Shown here: piece after piece, positions 2,383-13,965 of the stretch
How positions within the stretch are numbered: position 1 is the stretch's first letter
How the letters are laid out: each line of letters starts with the position of its first letter
IMG/VR virus record: IMGVR_UViG_3300043410_001917
Span: 1-64,000 of that record
DNA from: a virus
Strand: one strand, 5' to 3'
DNA length: 64,000 bases
Position numbers and translations under genes: made by a program
Notes under the pieces: generated by a model
Database searches by the model: none
What the model saw: the letters and a program-made list of their open reading frames with translations, nothing else
Told to the model about the DNA's origin: nothing

Positions 2383-2564
2383 TGGCTCAGATACCAGCAC
2401 TATTTTTACCCAAAAAAAATGAGGAAAAACCTCAAGTAAAAAAGCAAGAAAAGAAAAGGAAGAAACCGCCCGTGGACAAAAAGGTTTCTGCAATATTAAA
2501 AGGGAGAATTGATGGTTACAAAAAAAACAACGGCCAAATACGCAGCAGAATACTTGCAGGATGA
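2382..2564 (+). CDS. small, very basic protein
   Basis: A 60-residue protein coupled to the previous gene as TAATG and overlapping phoH by 53 bases. After MAQIPALFLPKK it is dominated by Lys, Pro and Gln (about one third Lys/Arg), so it is probably disordered and may bind nucleic acid. The long overlap with phoH and low complexity make it less certain than its neighbours. Confidence 0.45.
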   Translation: MAQIPALFLPKKNEEKPQVKKQEKKRKKPPVDKKVSAILKGRIDGYKKNNGQIRSRILAG

Positions 2565-3276
2565 TGAACACAAAACAAGACACCAACCAGTAATCAACAA
2601 TTCATTGAAAATAAAACCAGACCATTTAAAAACATTTGAACCATTAACGGAGAATCAGAGATTATTTTTTGAAATGTATAAAGGCGGCGCCTACTTTATG
2701 GGACTGTTCGGCAGTCCTGGAGTAGGCAAAACTTTTTTGGCACTCTATAAAGCACTTGAAGAAGTTTTGGACAAATCAAACTCATTCAGACAAGTGGTAG
2801 TTGTAAGGTCATTGGTACAATTACGTGATGTTGGTTTTTTACCAGGTGATTTAAATGAGAAACAAGAAATTTATGAATTACCATACAAAGAGATTGCTTC
2901 TACATTATTTGGTAGACCAGATGCATGGGATAGGTTAAAGGAGCAAGGATATGTCAGGTTTATTTCCACTACTGCTATACGTGGCATTTCTATTGATGAT
3001 GCTATTATTATTGTGGATGAAAATCAAAATCTTAATTGGTCGGAAGTCAACACAATCATTACCAGAGTTGGACACCGTTCAAAAATCATCTTCTCAGGAG
3101 ATTTTAAACAAACAGATTTGATTAAGAGTAACAAAGACCAAACAGCATTCCACAGTTTCTTGGAAGTGGCAAGAAAGATGCCATCCTTTCAGGAAATCTA
3201 CTTTACACCAGACGATATTGTTCGTTCTAGTCTAGTAAAACAATGGATTGTGGCGTGTGAAGAATTAGGATATTAA
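2512..3276 (+). CDS. phoH: PhoH-like P-loop ATPase
   Basis: A 254-residue PhoH-family protein. The ATP-binding P-loop GSPGVGKT is at residues 67-74 and the Walker B region IIIVDENQNLNW at about 164-175. The domain is preceded by about 40 residues of polar, His-rich N-terminus, and the total matches stand-alone PhoH ATPases. PhoH is a common auxiliary gene of marine phages. Family members have RNA helicase or ribonuclease roles, and its link to phosphate stress in phages is unproven. GGGAG lies upstream of ATG 2512. The gene directly abuts the following oxygenase, with no intergenic bases. Confidence 0.93.
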   Translation: MVTKKTTAKYAAEYLQDDEHKTRHQPVINNSLKIKPDHLKTFEPLTENQRLFFEMYKGGAYFMGLFGSPGVGKTFLALYKALEEVLDKSNSFRQVVVVRSLVQLRDVGFLPGDLNEKQEIYELPYKEIASTLFGRPDAWDRLKEQGYVRFISTTAIRGISIDDAIIIVDENQNLNWSEVNTIITRVGHRSKIIFSGDFKQTDLIKSNKDQTAFHSFLEVARKMPSFQEIYFTPDDIVRSSLVKQWIVACEELGY

Positions 3277-3903
3277 ATGATAAACACTATTAAACATGAA
3301 ATGTGGTCAACACCTATATGGATTGCTGACACAGGTTTTGATAAATATTTCAATGATATTATGTTGATGGAATTGAGAGAAGAACGTGACAACAATAGGT
3401 TTGATATCTATAATATATGGAATGTTAAATCGGAAAAGTTGCAAATGGTGAAGGAGAAATTGTTAGAATTACACAAACAAGAACTGTTTGAGTATTTGAA
3501 TCAAAATCATCCAGCTGGTTATGAACCATATCTATCAAATGGTTGGTTGAATTATTTTAATACCGGAGAAGGTCTGACTTTACATGACCATGCAGGATCT
3601 TTACTGGCTGCAACATATTATGTAAGTGTGCCAGAAAATTCAGGCGATATATATTTTAATGATCCTAGAGGTGCGGTCGATTGGGATTGGCGCTGTGATG
3701 GAAAAGTTAAATACACTTCCAAGTTAATTAGAATCAAACCAAAAGCGGGCCAAATTATTATGTTTCCTGCATTTCTCTTTCATGGTGTCGAAGAAAACAA
3801 ATCAAATAAACCAAGAATTACAGTTACAACAAATATAATAAATGGAGACATAAAAAACCCTCCAAAAACATTAATAAATAAGCTCTATGATAAACTACTC
3901 TAA
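3277..3903 (+). CDS. putative 2OG-Fe(II) oxygenase (PF13759-like), cassette copy 1
   Basis: A 208-residue protein with the double-stranded beta-helix signature of 2-oxoglutarate/Fe(II) dioxygenases. The proximal motif LHDHAGS (H103, D104, H105) is followed by TYYVSVPENSGDIYFNDPRG, then the distal His in MFPAFLFHGVEEN (H169) and an Arg in KPRITV that would bind 2OG. These enzymes hydroxylate or otherwise oxidise amino-acid side chains or small molecules. It begins immediately after phoH and precedes the Asn/Cys-rich protein by 12 bases, so the likely substrate could be that protein (inference). The N-terminus (MWSTPIWIADTGFD) matches the two other oxygenases in this cassette. Confidence 0.85.
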   Translation: MINTIKHEMWSTPIWIADTGFDKYFNDIMLMELREERDNNRFDIYNIWNVKSEKLQMVKEKLLELHKQELFEYLNQNHPAGYEPYLSNGWLNYFNTGEGLTLHDHAGSLLAATYYVSVPENSGDIYFNDPRGAVDWDWRCDGKVKYTSKLIRIKPKAGQIIMFPAFLFHGVEENKSNKPRITVTTNIINGDIKNPPKTLINKLYDKLL

Positions 3904-3915
3904 AACGGAATAAAA

Positions 3916-4323
3916 ATGACCACGCCAACCTCAGGTGCGATATCCTTCTCCAATGTTAATTCTGAAACAGGCCTTGCTGCTGGTGGAGCTTCTTCCAACA
4001 TGAGTTGGGTTAAGGACAATTCGAAAACCAGTGTTGGTGGAAGCACCGGTGTAGTCAAAGACATGGGTTCATTATACAATAAGGCCTATTATCAAAACAA
4101 TATGGGTGGTGCTTGTAATAATGGTAACTGCACCAATCAATGTAATTGTGGTAATATAAATTGTAATAATTGTGTTATTAGTGGAACTGTAAATTGTGCT
4201 AATTGTGACACTCAAAAATATTTACAACCAAATTGTAATTGTAATTGCACATATAATTGCACTACCACGACCACCTCATACAATTGTAATTGTGATTGTT
4301 GGATTTGTGCTTGCACTTGGTAA
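3916..4323 (+). CDS. Asn/Cys-rich protein, candidate substrate of the radical SAM maturase
   Basis: A 135-residue protein in two parts. Residues 1-66 are Ser/Gly/Thr/Asn-rich and start MTTPTSGAISFSNVN, the kind of N-terminus seen on virion or tail-associated proteins of marine T4-like phages. Residues 67-135 contain 17 Cys and 17 Asn in 69 residues, and 12 of the Cys follow Asn directly (NC dipeptides, e.g. CNCNCTYNC, YNCNCDCWICACTW). No signal peptide or known domain is seen. The gene sits 27 bases before a radical SAM/SPASM maturase, the classic order for a modified peptide and its enzyme. Alternatives are a metal-binding (metallothionein-like) protein or a disulfide- or thioether-stapled virion decoration. 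Confidence 0.75.
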   Translation: MTTPTSGAISFSNVNSETGLAAGGASSNMSWVKDNSKTSVGGSTGVVKDMGSLYNKAYYQNNMGGACNNGNCTNQCNCGNINCNNCVISGTVNCANCDTQKYLQPNCNCNCTYNCTTTTTSYNCNCDCWICACTW

Positions 4324-4350
4324 TTTAATACATTAATTTATAGGATAATT

Positions 4351-5790
4351 ATGAAATTTGAGATTCTTGCTGAACACTATACTGGTGATAGAAAAACATT
4401 CATTTATGACAATGAAACGAATATACTATCAACTGAAGATGGATTTGTTTTTGAATATCCAGAAATTAAACAACACAATCTAAAAGAAACTAAACCATTT
4501 TCAAAATATGATCCTTTAAAAAAATCAAAAGATATTACACTTATTAAGATTCAATTAGGATTATCTTGTAATTACACTTGTGATTATTGTTCACAACGTT
4601 TTGTTGAACGTCCACCAGAAACATCCAAAAAAGACATTGAAGATTTTATGAAAAAATTGGAAGTGTTGAATATAACTGAAGAACGTGGATTGCGTGTTGA
4701 ATTTTGGGGTGGAGAACCTCTTGTTTACTGGAAAACCTTAAAACCTTTAGCTGAAGCAATTGCTGAAAAATTTGGTCATTGGAAAAATAAACCAAGCTTT
4801 GGTATGGTAACTAATGGTTCACTTTTAACAAGAGAAATTTGTTCTTGGTTGTATTATATGAATTTTGGTGTTGGCATTAGTCACGATGGACCAAATCAAG
4901 ATGTTCGTGGACCAGATCCATTTGATGATGAAAACAAAAAGAAAATTATATTAGAATTTTATAAAATTATGAAAACACAAAATCGTATTAGTTTTAATGC
5001 GATGATGAATGCTAAGAACACGAACAGAAAAGAAATTAGAGATTGGTTTATTGCACTAACTGGTGATAAAGATGTTCCGATTGGAGAAGGTGGTATGATT
5101 GATGCATATGACGATGCGGCCGTATCATTATCAATTTCAAGTAAAAGTGAACATTTTGAATATAGACGAAATGCTTTCAATGATATACACACAGAAGGTA
5201 AAGAATTAAATTTTGTGTCGGTTCTTAGTAAAGTGGATGATTTTGTAAATCGTCTATTAAACCACATTGAATCAAAATATGTTGGTCAAAAATGTGGGAT
5301 GGAAAATGAGGACACAATTGCTCTTGACCTGAAAGGTAATATTGTCACTTGTCAAAACGTTTCAATTGTAGAAAATAGTAAAAATGGTGAACCACATTAT
5401 GGTGGCAACTTGGAAGACTATGACAATGTTCAATTAACATCTGTTACACATTGGAAAAATCGAGTGAGTTGTGGTGATTGTCCTGTATTACACCTATGTA
5501 AAGGTTCTTGTATGTATTTGGATGGCCATCATTGGGATGTAACTTGTAATTCTGCATATAGTGACAATGTAGTTTCTTTTGCGATTGCAATTTCCAGAAT
5601 AACAAATGGTTATATTCCTGTTACAATCAAAGCAGAAGGTTTACCCCTAGATAGACAAGATATTTGGGGAACAGTATATGAACACAAAGAAGAAACAACA
5701 AAGAAGATTATTCCTATCAAATTTGTTGCTGAAAAAATTGGCATGATTGACGATGTTGAGGTTTACGGTAAAACAACAGTAGGAAGTTAA
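4351..5790 (+). CDS. radical SAM/SPASM-domain peptide or protein maturase
   Basis: A 479-residue enzyme. The radical SAM cluster motif CNYTCDYC (C73, C77, C80) is followed by FWGGEPL (119-125). The C-terminal SPASM domain has the full seven-Cys pattern: C315, C334 (preceded by Gly at minus 5), C374-x2-C377-x5-C383-x3-C387 and C399. This is the auxiliary-cluster arrangement of maturases such as anaerobic sulfatase-maturating and sactipeptide/ranthipeptide enzymes, which modify Cys, Ser or other residues of a peptide. No sulfatase is nearby, while an Asn/Cys-rich protein is encoded just upstream. The first 60 residues could contain a substrate-recognition part, but I cannot show that. The gene is more AT-rich than phoH. 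Confidence 0.93.
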   Translation: MKFEILAEHYTGDRKTFIYDNETNILSTEDGFVFEYPEIKQHNLKETKPFSKYDPLKKSKDITLIKIQLGLSCNYTCDYCSQRFVERPPETSKKDIEDFMKKLEVLNITEERGLRVEFWGGEPLVYWKTLKPLAEAIAEKFGHWKNKPSFGMVTNGSLLTREICSWLYYMNFGVGISHDGPNQDVRGPDPFDDENKKKIILEFYKIMKTQNRISFNAMMNAKNTNRKEIRDWFIALTGDKDVPIGEGGMIDAYDDAAVSLSISSKSEHFEYRRNAFNDIHTEGKELNFVSVLSKVDDFVNRLLNHIESKYVGQKCGMENEDTIALDLKGNIVTCQNVSIVENSKNGEPHYGGNLEDYDNVQLTSVTHWKNRVSCGDCPVLHLCKGSCMYLDGHHWDVTCNSAYSDNVVSFAIAISRITNGYIPVTIKAEGLPLDRQDIWGTVYEHKEETTKKIIPIKFVAEKIGMIDDVEVYGKTTVGS

Positions 5791-5791
5791 A

Positions 5792-6502
5792 ATGTCTGAA
5801 CATTTAAACAATAACATAGAAATATTAAAAAAAGTATCCGGATGTAATGTTGAGTTGGTGAATATACCACCTCTAATAAAATCGCAAATTGATGTTGAAA
5901 GTGTGATGTTTAAATTTACAAAAAAGGGTAGAGTAGTAAATTTAATAATTCCATCTATATCTGCTGATTTCGACCACAGGTCTACAAATACACATGAAAA
6001 ATCAGAAGATTTTTTATATGCTGTTAAACAAATAATGTCAATTTTAGAATCTAACAATCAAGATGAAATTATAAAATTAAAAACTGAAATGCGAGGTGGT
6101 GGCCACGATGCACCTTGGCCAGAAATTTTGTGGCCATTATCTTTTTTTATTGACACTTCAACACATAGAATTATTATTATGAGATATGTGTATCTTGTTA
6201 CCGAATATGACGAGTGTTTATCATTATTGGTTGAAGGATTAAAAAAAATTGAAGGTGTTGTAAAAGTAGAAGTGAGAAAACGTTTAGAAGATAAAGATAA
6301 TGATGTATATTTTATTAGTTGCCACATTGATGATTTGATTTATCCTGGTATAACCAACTCTATGGTTGATTGTCATTCAGATGTTGAAACACATGAAATG
6401 ATAATTCAAAATGTCATCACAACGATACACAGTAACAAAATTAGAAACACAATGATGAATGATAGTATGCATTTTAACGAGGAAATTCATACACAACAAT
6501 GA
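5792..6502 (+). CDS. unknown protein of the modification cassette
   Basis: A 236-residue soluble protein that starts one base after the radical SAM stop and ends ten bases before the second oxygenase. It has no signal peptide, no Cys cluster and no recognised catalytic motif. A central stretch (MRGGGHDAPWPEILWPLSFF) stands out, followed by an alternating beta/alpha region (IIIMRYVYLVTEYDECLSLL) that could be a ferredoxin-like or RRE-like fold. Position between modification enzymes suggests a partner such as a recognition or scaffold protein, but that is inference. Confidence 0.7.
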   Translation: MSEHLNNNIEILKKVSGCNVELVNIPPLIKSQIDVESVMFKFTKKGRVVNLIIPSISADFDHRSTNTHEKSEDFLYAVKQIMSILESNNQDEIIKLKTEMRGGGHDAPWPEILWPLSFFIDTSTHRIIIMRYVYLVTEYDECLSLLVEGLKKIEGVVKVEVRKRLEDKDNDVYFISCHIDDLIYPGITNSMVDCHSDVETHEMIIQNVITTIHSNKIRNTMMNDSMHFNEEIHTQQ

Positions 6503-6512
6503 GATAATATAA

Positions 6513-7178
6513 ATGAAATGTGAAAATATTTTTGGTTTTCCTGTTGTTAGGATAAACTGTGAAGATGAATTAATATATAAAAATGAAGAATTAACTAAGA
6601 GTGTTAATTTCGTTTTTAATTCAAACCGTGTTATTTACCGTGATAGGTCGCTAAAAGGTGATTCACATAAAGGTGGTGGTTTAACTACTGCAAGTGAAAG
6701 TTATCTTTCTATCGTGGAACTTCCTGGTGCTCAACCACTAAAGAAATGGGTGAGCGAACAATTCCTAAAAGTAAAAGATACGATGGGTTGCACATACAAA
6801 GGTGACTCAATTTATTTCAAAAGAAGTTGGGCCAATCGTTTATATCGTGGCGGCCACGGATTGGTTCACAACCATGCCAAAATCGACAACTTCATATCCC
6901 AAATGACTGACTATGCCCGTAAGGATTTTAATCCTGATGCAGTTGGAATACTCTATGTTGATGTTCCAGAAAGTTCATCCAATCTTGTTTTTATTAACAA
7001 TGGTAGAACCCAAACCTGGATTGATGAGTATGATGAACTTGACACACACTGGATTACACCGATTGAAGGACAACTTGTGATACATCCACCAGAACTATGT
7101 CATGCTGTGAGTATTCATCATAACAATCTTCCACGTAATGTTTTTGTGTTTGATATTGATTATGTTGATGAAGAATGA
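6513..7178 (+). CDS. putative 2OG-Fe(II) oxygenase, cassette copy 2
   Basis: A 221-residue protein of the phage 2OG-Fe(II) oxygenase type. It begins MKCENIFGFPVVRINCED. It has SWANRLYRGGHGLVHNHAK, where HNH supplies the proximal metal ligands, then ILYVDVPESSSNLVFINNG, the distal PPELCHAVSIHH and NVFVFDIDY near the end. The proximal motif is HxH rather than HxD, as in several PF13759 proteins. Base composition here (one sampled line is 40 percent G+C) is closer to the phage backbone than to its AT-rich neighbours. It overlaps copy 3 by 11 bases. Confidence 0.75.
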   Translation: MKCENIFGFPVVRINCEDELIYKNEELTKSVNFVFNSNRVIYRDRSLKGDSHKGGGLTTASESYLSIVELPGAQPLKKWVSEQFLKVKDTMGCTYKGDSIYFKRSWANRLYRGGHGLVHNHAKIDNFISQMTDYARKDFNPDAVGILYVDVPESSSNLVFINNGRTQTWIDEYDELDTHWITPIEGQLVIHPPELCHAVSIHHNNLPRNVFVFDIDYVDEE

Positions 7179-7701
7179 AAATCTTTTTGCTACTCCAATC
7201 TGGACACACAAACTAGATAAAGAAACAAATGATAATATTAAACAAGAAATTGTTAATTATCAGAAAAACACTAATCTGTTTGACTCGGATACCACTGGTA
7301 TCAAAAAACTAAAAAATACCATTGTTGAAGCATACGATTCTATTGCCATCGACCACCATTTTATGCGATACTATGGTGAAGTACATGGTCGACTAAATGT
7401 AATTGGTTATGGTGTTTGTGATACACCACATAATCATATTGGTAAAATGCTTGTTGGTGTTTACTATGTGCAGGTTGGTGAAAATACAGGTGATATTTTG
7501 TTACATGACCCAAGAGGTGGAGTCAACTGGCAGAATTTAAATTTTGATCCACAAGAAAAAGATCCTAATAAAACTTGTAGAACATATCATAGAATTAAAC
7601 CTGAAAATGGTTTCTTAATTTTGTTTCCTAGTTATTTGGTTCATTCTGTTGAAACAAATCTTAGTCAAGAAGATAGAATTTCTATCGTAATTAATATTTA
7701 A
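7168..7701 (+). CDS. putative 2OG-Fe(II) oxygenase, cassette copy 3
   Basis: A 177-residue protein starting at ATG 7168, inside the end of copy 2. The frame is open upstream to 7138, but MKNENLFATPIW is the conserved start of this family. The body shows the typical PF13759 layout: DTPHNHIGKMLVGVYYVQV with HxH ligands, NTGDILLHDPRGG, then RIKPENGFLILFPSYLVHSVETN with the distal His and DRISIVINI with the 2OG-binding Arg. It closely parallels copy 1, including the DPRG turn, so 1 and 3 look like paralogues. Substrate unknown; the context suggests a modified peptide or virion protein. Confidence 0.85.
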   Translation: MKNENLFATPIWTHKLDKETNDNIKQEIVNYQKNTNLFDSDTTGIKKLKNTIVEAYDSIAIDHHFMRYYGEVHGRLNVIGYGVCDTPHNHIGKMLVGVYYVQVGENTGDILLHDPRGGVNWQNLNFDPQEKDPNKTCRTYHRIKPENGFLILFPSYLVHSVETNLSQEDRISIVINI

Positions 7702-7710
7702 GGAACATAT

Positions 7711-9240
7711 ATGAAATTTATAGTTGTTGGTGGTGGAACTTCTGGTTGGTTGACCGCATTATTCACACGAAAAATTTTCCCTGATGCAGAAATAAAAGTT
7801 ATTGCCAGCAGCGAAATTGGTATACTTGGAGCTGGAGAAGGTTCGACACCGCAATTCCCACAATTTTTAAAAAGAATTGATATTTCACCATCCGATATCA
7901 TCAAAAATGCAAAAGGCACACTTAAAAACGGAATCAAATTTACAAATTGGAACGGTGATGGTGAACACTATTATCATGGATTTCAAGACAATTTAGATTA
8001 TCTGAAAAAAACAAATTACAACTATCGTGCTGAATATCTAAACAAAATTAAAAATAATAAATGTTTGGATGATTTACATTTAACTCCATATATTTCTGAA
8101 CAAAAACAAGTAAAATATAGGAAAGATACAAATGAACCTGTTGGCCAAGATTCACTACATTTCGATGCAAACTTATTAGCCAAATATTTACAAAGTGTTG
8201 CATTTCAAAGAAACATTGAATTGATTGATGATGAGGTTGTGGGTATCAATACACATGAAGATAATTACATTAAATCATTGACATTAAAGAATAAGGGTGA
8301 AGAAACTTTAGATTTTGTTTTTGATTGCACAGGATTTAGACGATTAATCATTGGTGATTTTTATAAAACCAAATGGAACTCATACAAAGACAAGTTACCA
8401 ATGAATCGTGCTATGCCATTTTTTATTCAAAATGAAGGTGAACAATTACCTCCATATACAGAATCTATTGCAATGAAATACGGTTGGATTTGGAAGATTC
8501 CTGTTCAGGGTAGATATGGGTGTGGTTATGTGTTTGATTCTAGTTTCGCTAGTGATGAAGAAATCTTGCAGGAAATCAGAGATATGTTTGGAGACGATGT
8601 TGTTAGCCCAAGAACGTTTAGTTTTGATGCAGGTTACTATGACAAAGTTTGTGTTAATAATTGTATTGCCGTTGGTTTATCATCCGGTTTTGTTGAACCT
8701 TTGGAAGCCACAAGTATTTGGGTTCAAATTGTCGCACTAACTCAATTTGAATTTAGTAGAAACGAAATATTAACCCGCAATCAAAAATACATTGATAATT
8801 ATAATCAAACATTAAAATCAATAAATCAATCAGTATTGAATTTTATATATTTTCACTATTTAACTCCACGTAATGATAGTAATTTTTGGAAAACATTTAG
8901 AGAAAAAAATCAAGTTCTACCTTTCATTGAAAAACTGAGTGAAATTTGTGAGGAAAATATTCCTGAAAAAGAGGTTTATGAATATCTTACATCAATGGAA
9001 AATGTTCGAATTGGTTGTCAAAATGTTTCAGATACAAATATATTTTCTAGAGATAGTTGGTTACAGGTTGGTTCTGGCATTCGCTTCTTTAGTAAAGATA
9101 TTGCCGCCAAGGAATTTGAACAAAACTTTAAATATTATAAACCAAGTTTAGATATGATTGAATTACATAAACAAAACAATTTGGATCTATTAAAACATAA
9201 TCAACATTTACAAAATATAAAAGAGAAAAATAATGTCTGA
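7711..9240 (+). CDS. tryptophan-halogenase-like FAD-dependent protein
   Basis: A 509-residue flavoprotein with all hallmark motifs of flavin-dependent tryptophan halogenases (PF04820). The FAD-binding VGGGTSGW is at residues 6-13 and IGILGAGEGSTPQF at 36-49. The lysine corresponding to the catalytic Lys of PrnA/RebH is K72 in TLKNGIKFTNW. The halogenase signature WIWKIP lies at about 259-264, and SSGFVEPLEATSIW carries the conserved Glu. Length matches the family. Known members chlorinate or brominate free or carrier-bound Trp or other aromatic compounds, and also peptides. Substrate here is unknown, but the upstream Asn/Cys-rich protein has two Trp in its tail. It overlaps the next gene by eight bases. 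Confidence 0.88.
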   Translation: MKFIVVGGGTSGWLTALFTRKIFPDAEIKVIASSEIGILGAGEGSTPQFPQFLKRIDISPSDIIKNAKGTLKNGIKFTNWNGDGEHYYHGFQDNLDYLKKTNYNYRAEYLNKIKNNKCLDDLHLTPYISEQKQVKYRKDTNEPVGQDSLHFDANLLAKYLQSVAFQRNIELIDDEVVGINTHEDNYIKSLTLKNKGEETLDFVFDCTGFRRLIIGDFYKTKWNSYKDKLPMNRAMPFFIQNEGEQLPPYTESIAMKYGWIWKIPVQGRYGCGYVFDSSFASDEEILQEIRDMFGDDVVSPRTFSFDAGYYDKVCVNNCIAVGLSSGFVEPLEATSIWVQIVALTQFEFSRNEILTRNQKYIDNYNQTLKSINQSVLNFIYFHYLTPRNDSNFWKTFREKNQVLPFIEKLSEICEENIPEKEVYEYLTSMENVRIGCQNVSDTNIFSRDSWLQVGSGIRFFSKDIAAKEFEQNFKYYKPSLDMIELHKQNNLDLLKHNQHLQNIKEKNNV

Positions 9241-10777
9241 TTGTATTATTATAGGTGATGGAGTAGGTCATGCAGAAGATTTTAGTAGGATACAGAGAAG
9301 TCTAGGTGCATATAGAGTTGCTTCAGAATTAATAGAAAAAGGTTATTCAACATTCGTTTTTGATTTTATTAATGAATTCACTTTGAAAGAAATATTTGAT
9401 GTTTTAGATAAACACCTGAATGAAAAAACTTTGTGGGTAGGATTCAGCTCAACATTTTTTTGGCCGATAGGATACCAAGAAGATTTGCAAAATGTTCTGA
9501 ATAATAAAATTGAACATGAACATTCTTCTTTGAATTTAATGTATTGGAAAAATTACACTTTTGTTAAAAATATAATCGAATATATAAAAAGTAAAAGTAA
9601 GGCAAAAATTGTATATGGTGGTGCAAAAACTCCTTACACATTGATTGATAAGAATGTGGATTATTATGTTTTGGGTTATGCTGATGTGACAATTTTAGAA
9701 TTGACAGATTTCTTAGCAGGAAAAAAACAATCCATTGAACATATTGAAGAAGTAGAAATTGATGGTGTAAAGAAATATAAAATAGATTCTTTCAAGTATG
9801 CAGAACCAAGAATGGATTCCATTTCAACAAGTTGGTGGCGTAAAGAATTTAATATATTGCCTGCTGAAAGTTTACCAATTGAAACTGGTCGAGGTTGTAT
9901 TTTCAAATGTAAATTTTGTTCCTTTCCTTTACTTGGTAAGAAAAAAGGAACATATACTAGGTCTTGTGGTATAATAAGAGAAGAATTGATAAAAACATTT
10001 GAGACAACAGGAACAACTTCCTTCTACATCACAGATGATACATTTAATGATGACAATGATAAGATGGAAGAATTTCATAAAATGTTTACCAGCCTACCAT
10101 TCAAACCAAAATTAACTGGTTATTTGCGATTGGATTTGATAAACAAATACACACATCAAGCAGATTTGTTGTCTGAAATGGGTTTTGTTGGTGCTTTTTT
10201 TGGTATAGAAACATTACAACCGGAAAGTGCTAAGAGTATAGGTAAGGGATTGCATCCTAATAAGGTGAAAGATAGATTATATTGGCTCGCAGAAAAGTGG
10301 AAAAATAAAATAAATGTTACTTCCGGTTTCATTCTTGGTTTACCATACGATACCACAGATTATTTTGATGAATTATTTAATTGGTCTTTAGAAGATGACA
10401 ACCCTCTACAAGAGATTATTTTTTATCCATTGAAGTTATTCAATAATAAAACTAATAAAGAATTGGATAGATATAATTCCGAGTTTGCTATAAATCCAGA
10501 AATATATGGTTATGAATTCAATACGATAACTGATTGGAGATTACCATCACAAAAATTAGATTATAATATGTGTAAAAACATTGCAGAATATTATAATAAT
10601 ATTAGGGGACCAAAAAATAAAATTTCTTCATTCACTATGCACACTATGGCAAATTTAGGTGTATCATACGATGATATGTATAAATGCACACAAAATGAAT
10701 TGTTAAATAGATATAACTTTGAAGAATTGAATAGATTGAAGATTGAAGAATATAAAGGATTGATTTTGAATGTTTAA
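9233..10777 (+). CDS. B12-binding-type radical SAM protein
   Basis: A 514-residue protein whose first 190 or so residues resemble a cobalamin-binding Rossmann domain (opening VASELIEKGYSTFVFDFINEF and VYGGAKTPYTL), followed by a radical SAM domain. The cluster motif is CIFKCKFC (C222, C226, C229) after ETGRG, with YITDDTFNDD and FFGIETLQPESAKSIGKGL typical of this class. The classic B12-binding DxHxxG is not obvious, so cobalamin use is uncertain. Such enzymes methylate unactivated carbons or catalyse other radical steps on peptides and lipids. It starts within the halogenase gene and overlaps the exonuclease gene by eight bases, so the cassette ends tightly coupled to the replication genes. 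Confidence 0.85.
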   Translation: MSDCIIIGDGVGHAEDFSRIQRSLGAYRVASELIEKGYSTFVFDFINEFTLKEIFDVLDKHLNEKTLWVGFSSTFFWPIGYQEDLQNVLNNKIEHEHSSLNLMYWKNYTFVKNIIEYIKSKSKAKIVYGGAKTPYTLIDKNVDYYVLGYADVTILELTDFLAGKKQSIEHIEEVEIDGVKKYKIDSFKYAEPRMDSISTSWWRKEFNILPAESLPIETGRGCIFKCKFCSFPLLGKKKGTYTRSCGIIREELIKTFETTGTTSFYITDDTFNDDNDKMEEFHKMFTSLPFKPKLTGYLRLDLINKYTHQADLLSEMGFVGAFFGIETLQPESAKSIGKGLHPNKVKDRLYWLAEKWKNKINVTSGFILGLPYDTTDYFDELFNWSLEDDNPLQEIIFYPLKLFNNKTNKELDRYNSEFAINPEIYGYEFNTITDWRLPSQKLDYNMCKNIAEYYNNIRGPKNKISSFTMHTMANLGVSYDDMYKCTQNELLNRYNFEELNRLKIEEYKGLILNV

Positions 10778-11429
10778 TTATTGCCCACCAAAAGAGATTC
10801 CAAAGATTGAATCTCAAACTTTCCCTGATGGGAAAAGATATTATGTTACACCAAATGGTAAAAAATTGCCATCGGTAACTACTGTGGTGGGCGCACAGAA
10901 AAAACAATCCATTTTAGAATGGCGCCGTAGAGTTGGTGAAGATGTTGCAAACAAAATTTCCAGACAAGCAACATCACGTGGCACCAATATGCATACGATG
11001 TGTGAATACTATTTGAACAATGAACCAAAACCACCAGGTAACGTCATGCCTGATGCGAAAGAATTGTTCATATCAATCAAACCATATCTAAACAAAATCA
11101 ACAATATACATTACCAAGAAGTTGGTTTGTGGTCTGAACAATTAGGTTTGGCGGGTCGTGTAGATTGTATTGGTGAATATGAAGGTAAGTTATCTGTTAT
11201 TGATTTTAAAACATCCAAAAAAATCAAAACACGTGAATCAATTCTAGATTATTTCTGGCAAACTACTGCATATGCATTGATGTATGAAGAATTGATTGGA
11301 CAACCTATTGATGATTTGGTAATCATTATGGCGGTAGACAATGAACAACCAATCATCTTCAAAGAAAAAACACAAGACCATATTGAAGGTTTAGTTAGAG
11401 CTATTGATTATTACCACAAAAACAGTTGA
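10770..11429 (+). CDS. PD-(D/E)XK nuclease, RecB/Cas4-like phage exonuclease
   Basis: A 219-residue nuclease. The active-site pattern is GRVDCIGEYEG (D132) followed by VIDFKTSKK (D145 and K147). An upstream helix SRGTNMHTMCEYYL carries the His and Glu-type residues of RecB-like folds, and the downstream DYFWQTTAYALMYEEL fits the QxxxY motif of the same superfamily. Proteins of this size, often annotated as exonuclease in T4-like marine phages, act in recombination or host DNA breakdown. The start overlaps the upstream gene, and the 3' end contains the -35 box of a sigma70-like promoter. Confidence 0.85.
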   Translation: MFNYCPPKEIPKIESQTFPDGKRYYVTPNGKKLPSVTTVVGAQKKQSILEWRRRVGEDVANKISRQATSRGTNMHTMCEYYLNNEPKPPGNVMPDAKELFISIKPYLNKINNIHYQEVGLWSEQLGLAGRVDCIGEYEGKLSVIDFKTSKKIKTRESILDYFWQTTAYALMYEELIGQPIDDLVIIMAVDNEQPIIFKEKTQDHIEGLVRAIDYYHKNS

Positions 11430-12515: not shown

Positions 12516-13058
12516 ATGAAAAAAAGTTTAGTTGCTCTAGCAACAATGGTTTCATTGTCAGCATTTGCTGGTAGTTATGTTCAAGTTGAACAAGAACATG
12601 TTATCGGGCGTGCAGGTGCTGCAAATAGTGAAGCAACTTACCTACGTGCAGGTAAGGATTTTGGAGACACATCGGTTAACTTGCAAAGTCGTACCGCTCG
12701 TTTTTCAACAAACAGCATCAGTTCAAGCCTAGAAGGAACTGTTTCTAACAAAAACGCAAGCATTCTTGGTATCACACCATTCGTTGGAATGGGCCACGAT
12801 TTTGGTGGAACCGCTAGTGGTTACAATTATGGCCTAGTTGGCGCATCAACTGGTGTTAAAGTTGGACCTGGTTCAGCATATGCAGGTGTTAAAACCCGTG
12901 TATTGCGCCAAAATGATTCCGATCCAAAGCAAACAGTTGTATACGCTGGTTACAACATGCCTGTTGCCAAAGATGTATCATTTAACGTTGGTCTAAGTCA
13001 TTCAGGCCAAGACATTAAAGAAAGAGGCGTTTCAGCTGGTCTTTCTTTCGGTTTCTAA
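12516..13058 (+). CDS. secreted outer-membrane-protein-like beta-barrel protein
   Basis: A 180-residue protein with a signal peptide (MKKSLVALATMVSLSAFA, cleavage likely after AFA). The rest alternates hydrophobic and polar residues as in a small beta barrel, and the C-terminus SAGLSFGF ends in Phe, as outer-membrane proteins do. The body is Gly/Ser/Asn-rich with few charged clusters. An AGGAG site precedes the ATG. This would be a phage-coded envelope protein; possible roles are changing the surface to exclude other phages or affecting adsorption. No family can be named. It lies just after the tmRNA. Confidence 0.75.
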   Translation: MKKSLVALATMVSLSAFAGSYVQVEQEHVIGRAGAANSEATYLRAGKDFGDTSVNLQSRTARFSTNSISSSLEGTVSNKNASILGITPFVGMGHDFGGTASGYNYGLVGASTGVKVGPGSAYAGVKTRVLRQNDSDPKQTVVYAGYNMPVAKDVSFNVGLSHSGQDIKERGVSAGLSFGF

Positions 13059-13473: not shown

Positions 13474-13965
13474 ATGAAGTTTTTATCAACTTTAATTTTA
13501 TCTTTATCTATTTTATTTTTGCCTGTAAAGGCATATCAAGCACAACCAGATTTACAACAACAGGTTAGTGCAAATATAAATCAACAAATCCTTTGCATGG
13601 CTAAAAACATTTATTATGAAGCTGCAATGGAACCACATGAAGGAAAGTTGGCCGTAGCACAAGTCACAATCAATCGTGCCAACAATCCAAATTATCCAAA
13701 AGATTTTTGCGGTGTTGTTTACCAAAAGACAGGTCAAACATGCCAATTTACATGGACTTGCGAGAAGGTTGGTCCAGTAAGAAACCCATATGCTTGGGAA
13801 GAATGTTTATATATTGCCAAGAGAGCAATGACAGAGGCAATCTTACACAAAGAGATTGCCAAGGCTCGTGCAATGTTTTACCATGCAACATATGTTCGTC
13901 CAGGTTGGTCAAACATCCGACCTGTAAGAACAATTGGAAACCATATTTTTTATACGAAAGCTTGA
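13474..13965 (+). CDS. secreted SleB/CwlJ-type cell wall hydrolase (endolysin candidate)
   Basis: A 163-residue protein with an N-terminal signal peptide (MKFLSTLILSLSILFLPVKA). The rest fits the SleB/CwlJ hydrolase family (PF07486): IYYEAAMEPHEGKLAVAQV with the catalytic Glu, then VINRANNPNYP-like and TCQFTWTC. Such enzymes cleave peptidoglycan. Export by the Sec pathway would allow lysis without a classic holin, or it could act at the periplasm during adsorption or release. It has AAGGAG before the ATG and is followed within two bases by gp33. Confidence 0.85.
   Translation: MKFLSTLILSLSILFLPVKAYQAQPDLQQQVSANINQQILCMAKNIYYEAAMEPHEGKLAVAQVTINRANNPNYPKDFCGVVYQKTGQTCQFTWTCEKVGPVRNPYAWEECLYIAKRAMTEAILHKEIAKARAMFYHATYVRPGWSNIRPVRTIGNHIFYTKA

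Follow-up and report, generated by a model that had tools for sequence, protein, structure and literature searches.

Organization of the cassette

The window analysed here comprises 64,000 nucleotides (positions 1 to 64,000) of the virus record IMGVR_UViG_3300043410_001917, which is 67,330 bases long. An eight-gene cassette lies in it between phoH (2509-3276), which directly precedes it, and a PD-(D/E)XK nuclease gene (10770-11429), which closes its 3' side, all on the + strand. The first gene encodes a 2OG-Fe(II) oxygenase (3277-3903; PF13759 with E 1e-20, TIGR02466, phrog_81) and is followed by the candidate substrate, a 135-aa virion-type protein with an Asn-Cys tract and a C-terminal Trp (3916-4323), by a radical SAM/SPASM maturase (4351-5790; PF04055, E 4e-10; phrog_1802, E 2e-63) and, directly 3' of the latter, by a partner protein of two alpha/beta halves (5792-6502). 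The remaining genes encode a second type of 2OG-Fe(II) oxygenase (ogB, 6513-7178, E 1e-6), another PF13759 oxygenase (7138-7701, E 3e-19), a flavin-dependent tryptophan halogenase (7711-9240; PF04820, E 1e-97) and a B12-type radical SAM enzyme with CIFKCKFC at residue 222 (9233-10777; radical SAM, E 3e-13). According to the ORF list and the coordinates, neighbouring ORFs are separated by 27 bases or less or overlap slightly. The original prediction, made from the sequence alone, was accurate in gene positions, order, orientation and gaps, every ORF lying where it had been placed, and its enzyme classes were confirmed by Pfam, PHROGs and NCBIfam profiles. On reading, the genes downstream of the cassette look like T4-like structural genes. 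The window also encodes, at 12516-13058 and 13474-13965, two proteins whose N-termini look like signal peptides; by eye, one is similar to an outer-membrane barrel and the other to a cell-wall hydrolase.

An Asn/Cys-rich protein beside a SPASM radical SAM enzyme

The 135-aa protein contains 17 Cys, 12 of which directly follow Asn. This pairing exceeds chance, as 20,000 shuffles of residues 61-135 did not reach it once. Asn also precedes 374 of the 545 Cys in 30 homologues, among which N106, C107, N108, C109, T112, N114 and C115 are invariant; these residues belong to the conserved motif NCNC(N/A)CTYNC (residues 106-115, 4231-4260, + strand). The C-terminal tract, read from the sequence as NCNCDCWICACTW followed by the stop codon (4282-4323, +), ends with the codon of Trp135 (4318-4320, +), which is the predicted halogenase target because a terminal Trp co-occurs with the halogenase. 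At about one quarter to one third of the conserved Asn/Cys positions, relatives use different synonymous codons, a pattern expected when selection maintains the protein. No family for this protein was found in Pfam, PHROGs or NCBIfam. In loci L003-L008 a homologue immediately precedes the radical SAM gene.

In the radical SAM enzyme, the CxxxCxxC cysteines (C73, C77 and C80) are invariant across 25 diverse members, and so are the seven Cys of a full SPASM signature (C315-X13-G-X4-C334, C374-X2-C377-X5-C383-X3-C387 and C399), tested as the pattern CX9-15GX4C..CX2CX5CX3C..C. The AF2 model (pLDDT 89) matched anSME (3e-13) and CteB (1e-12) best in the PDB, then TigE, ChlB, SkfB and SuiB. All of these enzymes modify peptides or proteins, and CteB forms thioethers. 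By motif, Cys pattern and fold, the enzyme belongs to the class of SPASM radical SAM peptide/protein maturases. The NCBIfam profile of the PapB ranthipeptide maturase (NF047865) ranked above those of sulfatase maturases, with 81 bits against a curated cut-off of 340 that was thus not reached. PapB connects Cys with Asp or Glu across 0-6 intervening residues (PMC9413430), a tolerance that makes Cys-to-Asn/Asp links in the NCNC tract chemically plausible.

Linkage of the Cys tract and the radical SAM enzyme in relatives

A tblastn search with the radical SAM enzyme against 50,697 phage records found close relatives in three records from two phages, Achromobacter JWF (two records) and 2-1; the remaining matches had less than 30% identity and covered the query only partly, and no relative was found in the cyanophages of this set. 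In JWF and 2-1 the radical SAM gene belongs to the tail module: 706 bp separate it from a preceding fibre gene, PJWF_00028 in JWF, whose Asn-Cys tract is followed immediately by Hint-type sequence. The enzyme was directly preceded by an Asn-Cys protein in 6/6 of the closest IMG/VR contigs. As tblastn with the Asn/Cys protein itself gave no match among annotated phages, we used DNA motif scans, which yielded 96 and then at least 120 further stretches, with the enzyme nearby in most of the readable ones.

Because these loci had been chosen by the motif, loci were then chosen by the enzyme. An Asn-Cys-repeat protein was present in 74/80 viral loci fetched by the radical SAM enzyme alone (66/71 without identical enzymes) and in 59/80 loci from bacterial genomes, mostly prophage-like (still 59/80 without identical enzymes). 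Among loci chosen by phoH, the tract occurred in 18/19 that hold the enzyme and in 0/61 that lack it (Fisher 5e-17, for loci that are related to one another and of which the enzyme-free ones are shorter, with a median of 8.5 vs 12.8 kb). The window's own type escaped our initial, strict tract rule, which was widened after the data had been seen and applied in the same form to the controls. Asn stands before Cys at 518/818 tract positions. By the widened rule 21/80 genome loci have no tract. Some of them hold shorter tracts and the Variovorax type holds none; several apparent misses are shorter tracts such as NCNCMG and NCDCHC. In prophage operons of Limnohabitans and Thalassobacter, tail-fibre genes, the tract protein, a PF13759-type oxygenase and the radical SAM gene occur together.

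The core pair is widespread and not a local oddity, and the window holds one ornate case of it. This core consists of the candidate substrate and the SPASM radical SAM enzyme, which a PF13759 oxygenase usually joins; the halogenase, ogB and the B12-type radical SAM enzyme are add-ons of one branch. The original prediction had named linkage in relatives as its check, and the core pair passed strongly in both enzyme-chosen sets and against the enzyme-free controls. Of the complete tailoring pathway that it had proposed, the linked core pair stands, but the eight genes do not form a single fixed pathway. Nor is the system special to T4-like phages, where it had been placed, since it also occurs in prophages and Achromobacter phages.

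Three observations concern individual loci. The Cys repeat goes out of frame in the tract gene of L461 (4626-4880), next to intact radical SAM and halogenase genes, probably through an assembly slip or alternatively through a change in repeat length; having no readable tract, this locus was set aside. Three loci titled as Akkermansia and Klebsiella MAGs (L317, L321 and L375) carry a radical SAM gene of the Limnohabitans-prophage type and are possibly misbinned contigs. The single assemblies of Magnetospirillum sp. SS-4 (L366, L368, L370) and Alphaproteobacteria MAG02 (L311, L331, L341, L343) hold three or four different radical SAM copies.

Position of the tract in probable virion proteins

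The tract was found in three forms. In the first, the tract forms the very C-terminal end of its protein, which is roughly 70 to 600 aa long. Several of these proteins have matches in tail-fibre or collagen-like tail families, and many prophage proteins end in tracts such as NCNCNCRC. In the second, it precedes an autoprocessing domain, either Hint (JWF, L034, L085, L126) or an S74 chaperone (L019). The Hint domain of JWF begins directly after NCNCDCNCNCS and the S74 chaperone of L019 starts one residue past ...NCDCNCDCFW; among the Hint and S74 matches, only these two exceed the Pfam cut-offs. Cleavage takes place at Ser-Asp in S74 domains and ahead of the first Cys in Hint domains. The tract would then become terminal, or lie one residue from the end, because cleavage removes the downstream domain. 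In the third form, the tract is internal in a 300-aa protein, upstream of a conserved domain beginning CSKIIC, and the assumption that all tracts are terminal was rejected on account of this group. The domain, beginning CSKIICTKLYEIGLM, occupies the C-terminal half of the 300-aa proteins of L010, L013, L020 and others, after the Cys tract, and the L010 copy, the one searched, had no Pfam or PHROG match.

Relatives of the substrate thus match fibre families or S74/Hint domains, and the window protein itself has no family match. That the product is a virion part and not a secreted toxin, as originally proposed, is well supported by relatives whose fibres end in the same Cys tract. The location of the window pair, apart from the tail genes and between phoH and the nuclease, counts against a tail-tip reading.

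Companion enzymes and the terminal tryptophan

In 58/76 viral and 53/80 genome loci a PF13759-type oxygenase gene is found no more than 5 kb from the radical SAM gene, so that at least one such oxygenase is a frequent companion. The add-on genes differ between relatives; within the window-type loci, ogB and the B12-type enzyme are confined to the Trp/halogenase branch. Window-type loci have a member of the partner-protein family (5792-6502 in the window) immediately after the radical SAM gene; the L007 member is split into two short homologous ORFs. Iterated searching gave 35 distinct relatives of the partner protein and no Pfam, PHROGs or NCBIfam family, and its AF2 model (pLDDT 82) matched no PDB fold under E 0.07. 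For the enzyme at 9233-10777, the nearest families are B12-type (TIGR04072, 9e-20, and the PhpK family, 6e-16, both under cut-off), with the B12-binding domain itself reaching only E 0.036; it had no match among the 50,697 phage records.

The halogenase has an intact GxGxxG at residue 7 and an intact WxWxIP at residue 259, and its best PDB match is a Trp 5-halogenase (2wet, 1e-56), with VirX1 (6qgm) at 5e-52. Where enough downstream sequence was available, a halogenase accompanied 16/16 window-type proteins ending in Trp, including the S74 form with Trp just ahead of the cut, and 0/17 window-type proteins without it (Fisher 9e-10). In loci chosen by the halogenase and holding the radical SAM enzyme, Trp was kept in 19/19 distinct tracts, and in addition in a second S74 form, L481. 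The residues flanking it vary (ACTW, FNCW, CDCW, ACLW), which indicates that Trp itself is held. On the enzyme tree two changes suffice for either trait, and one if only starred branches count; the idea of many independent cases was accordingly rejected in favour of one or two events. The halogenase and the terminal Trp therefore show strong co-segregation over few events, and the halogenase would act on this residue.

Phage halogenases also occur without the core pair, near oxygenases and fibre assembly genes. In Synechococcus phage syn9 (L457, 4467-12407), which has no relative of the SPASM enzyme, the tail-fibre assembly genes are directly followed by three 2OG oxygenase genes and two tryptophan halogenase genes that adjoin each other. 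Such halogenase/oxygenase sets may have other virion proteins as substrates.

Proposed maturation of a virion protein

With the genes linked, the tract terminal in many relatives, the enzyme signatures intact and Trp co-occurring with the halogenase, we consider it fairly likely that the cassette encodes a RiPP-like maturation of a virion protein, which is most likely a tail-fibre tip. Support for the core of this reading, in which a radical SAM enzyme is dedicated to the Asn-Cys tract of virion proteins, comes from loci chosen in several ways. The substrate would be the 135-aa structural protein, with most Cys of its tract placed after Asn. The SPASM enzyme would act on this tract, most likely by forming C-S thioether links from Cys to neighbouring residues, as its fold and closest relatives suggest. 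Hydroxylation of residues in the 135-aa protein is the probable role of the PF13759 oxygenases, and in the window branch the flavin halogenase would halogenate the C-terminal Trp, to judge from their co-occurrence. A stiff, modified end at the distal fibre end could then serve receptor contact or stability. Phages thus probably build chemically modified tail tips, possibly for host binding. The fuller account, in which phages of several groups cross-link Asn-Cys fibre-tip tracts by radical SAM chemistry for receptor contact, then hydroxylate them and, in one branch, halogenate Trp, is held tentatively, at a little under even chances.

It is possible, though unlikely, that the Cys tract serves as a fibre tip that binds metal, with iron or another metal held by the CxC repeats of a trimer and the role of the radical SAM enzyme limited to tuning or protecting this tip. 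The CxCxCxC spacing is like that of the HxH motifs of T4 gp37 and marine phages (PMC11705849), several tract carriers match tail-fibre families, and such a tip is compatible with modification and may even be its purpose. By itself, however, metal binding leaves unexplained the near-obligatory radical SAM partner and the preference for Asn before Cys.

Oxidation of Cys to formylglycine, as by anSME, giving aldehyde tips that react with host amines, is improbable, even with anSME as the top fold match and the JWF radical SAM gene annotated as anSME. The target motif of anSME is of the CxPxR type, but the tract has no such motif, and the profiles put PapB above the sulfatase maturases. Very improbable is a true secreted RiPP, cut from the protein as a small toxin or signal and released at lysis: the enzyme classes and the Cys-rich substrate are typical of RiPP clusters, but no transporter or peptidase was recognised in the operon (ORF list, Pfam, PHROGs, NCBIfam), the relatives carry the tract at the end of long tail fibres, and self-cleaving domains at the terminus (Hint and S74) are in keeping with virion maturation. 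We give even less weight to unrelated auxiliary genes gathered in a variable region, with another substrate for the radical SAM enzyme, since the core pair is joined in distinct phage groups and prophages and absent from all enzyme-free controls, even if add-ons vary among relatives and halogenases also occur in phages without the pair.

If maturation of a fibre tip is correct, adsorption tips would include enzymatically made chemical structures beyond folded protein, and the prediction of host range from sequence would change. It would explain the radical SAM, oxygenase and halogenase genes of many aquatic phages, now filed as auxiliary metabolism, provide a large, so far unused collection of peptide-modifying enzymes that come with their own substrates, and give the phage halogenase a candidate natural substrate in the C-terminal Trp.

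Comparison with known systems

A search of open-access papers on phage radical SAM enzymes, tail modification and RiPPs gave no account of this system. The enzymes and the logic of precursor plus maturase are known from RiPPs, and the substrate class and likely virion use are, as far as found there, undescribed. In the window and its relatives, as in RiPP systems, the putative precursor is encoded beside the modifying enzyme. Ranthipeptide and sactipeptide maturases such as PapB and CteB share the enzyme class, signature and fold, and a Cys-rich substrate encoded next door, but here the substrate is a virion or tail-fibre protein and no leader peptidase or exporter was seen.

SrpI, which brominates the C-terminal Trp of a ribosomal precursor (PMC10858898), likewise pairs a halogenase with a ribosomal protein ending in Trp; its substrate is a proteusin precursor with a long leader, whereas ours is a phage structural protein. 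VirX1 of cyanophage Syn10 is also a phage flavin-dependent halogenase (PMC8407142), with no natural substrate given in the consulted passages of that source, and differs in that the SPASM enzyme was not found in cyanophages. Radical SAM cassettes are reported to be variable in the host-recognition region of pelagimyophages, and the consulted passages of that report propose no substrate or function for them (PMC7029224); they are likened to the present cassette by description only. Finally, the iron-binding receptor tip of T4 gp37 (HxH) has a similar repeated X-x-X motif near the fibre end, but the repeat described here is built from Cys instead of His and comes with a dedicated modifying enzyme.
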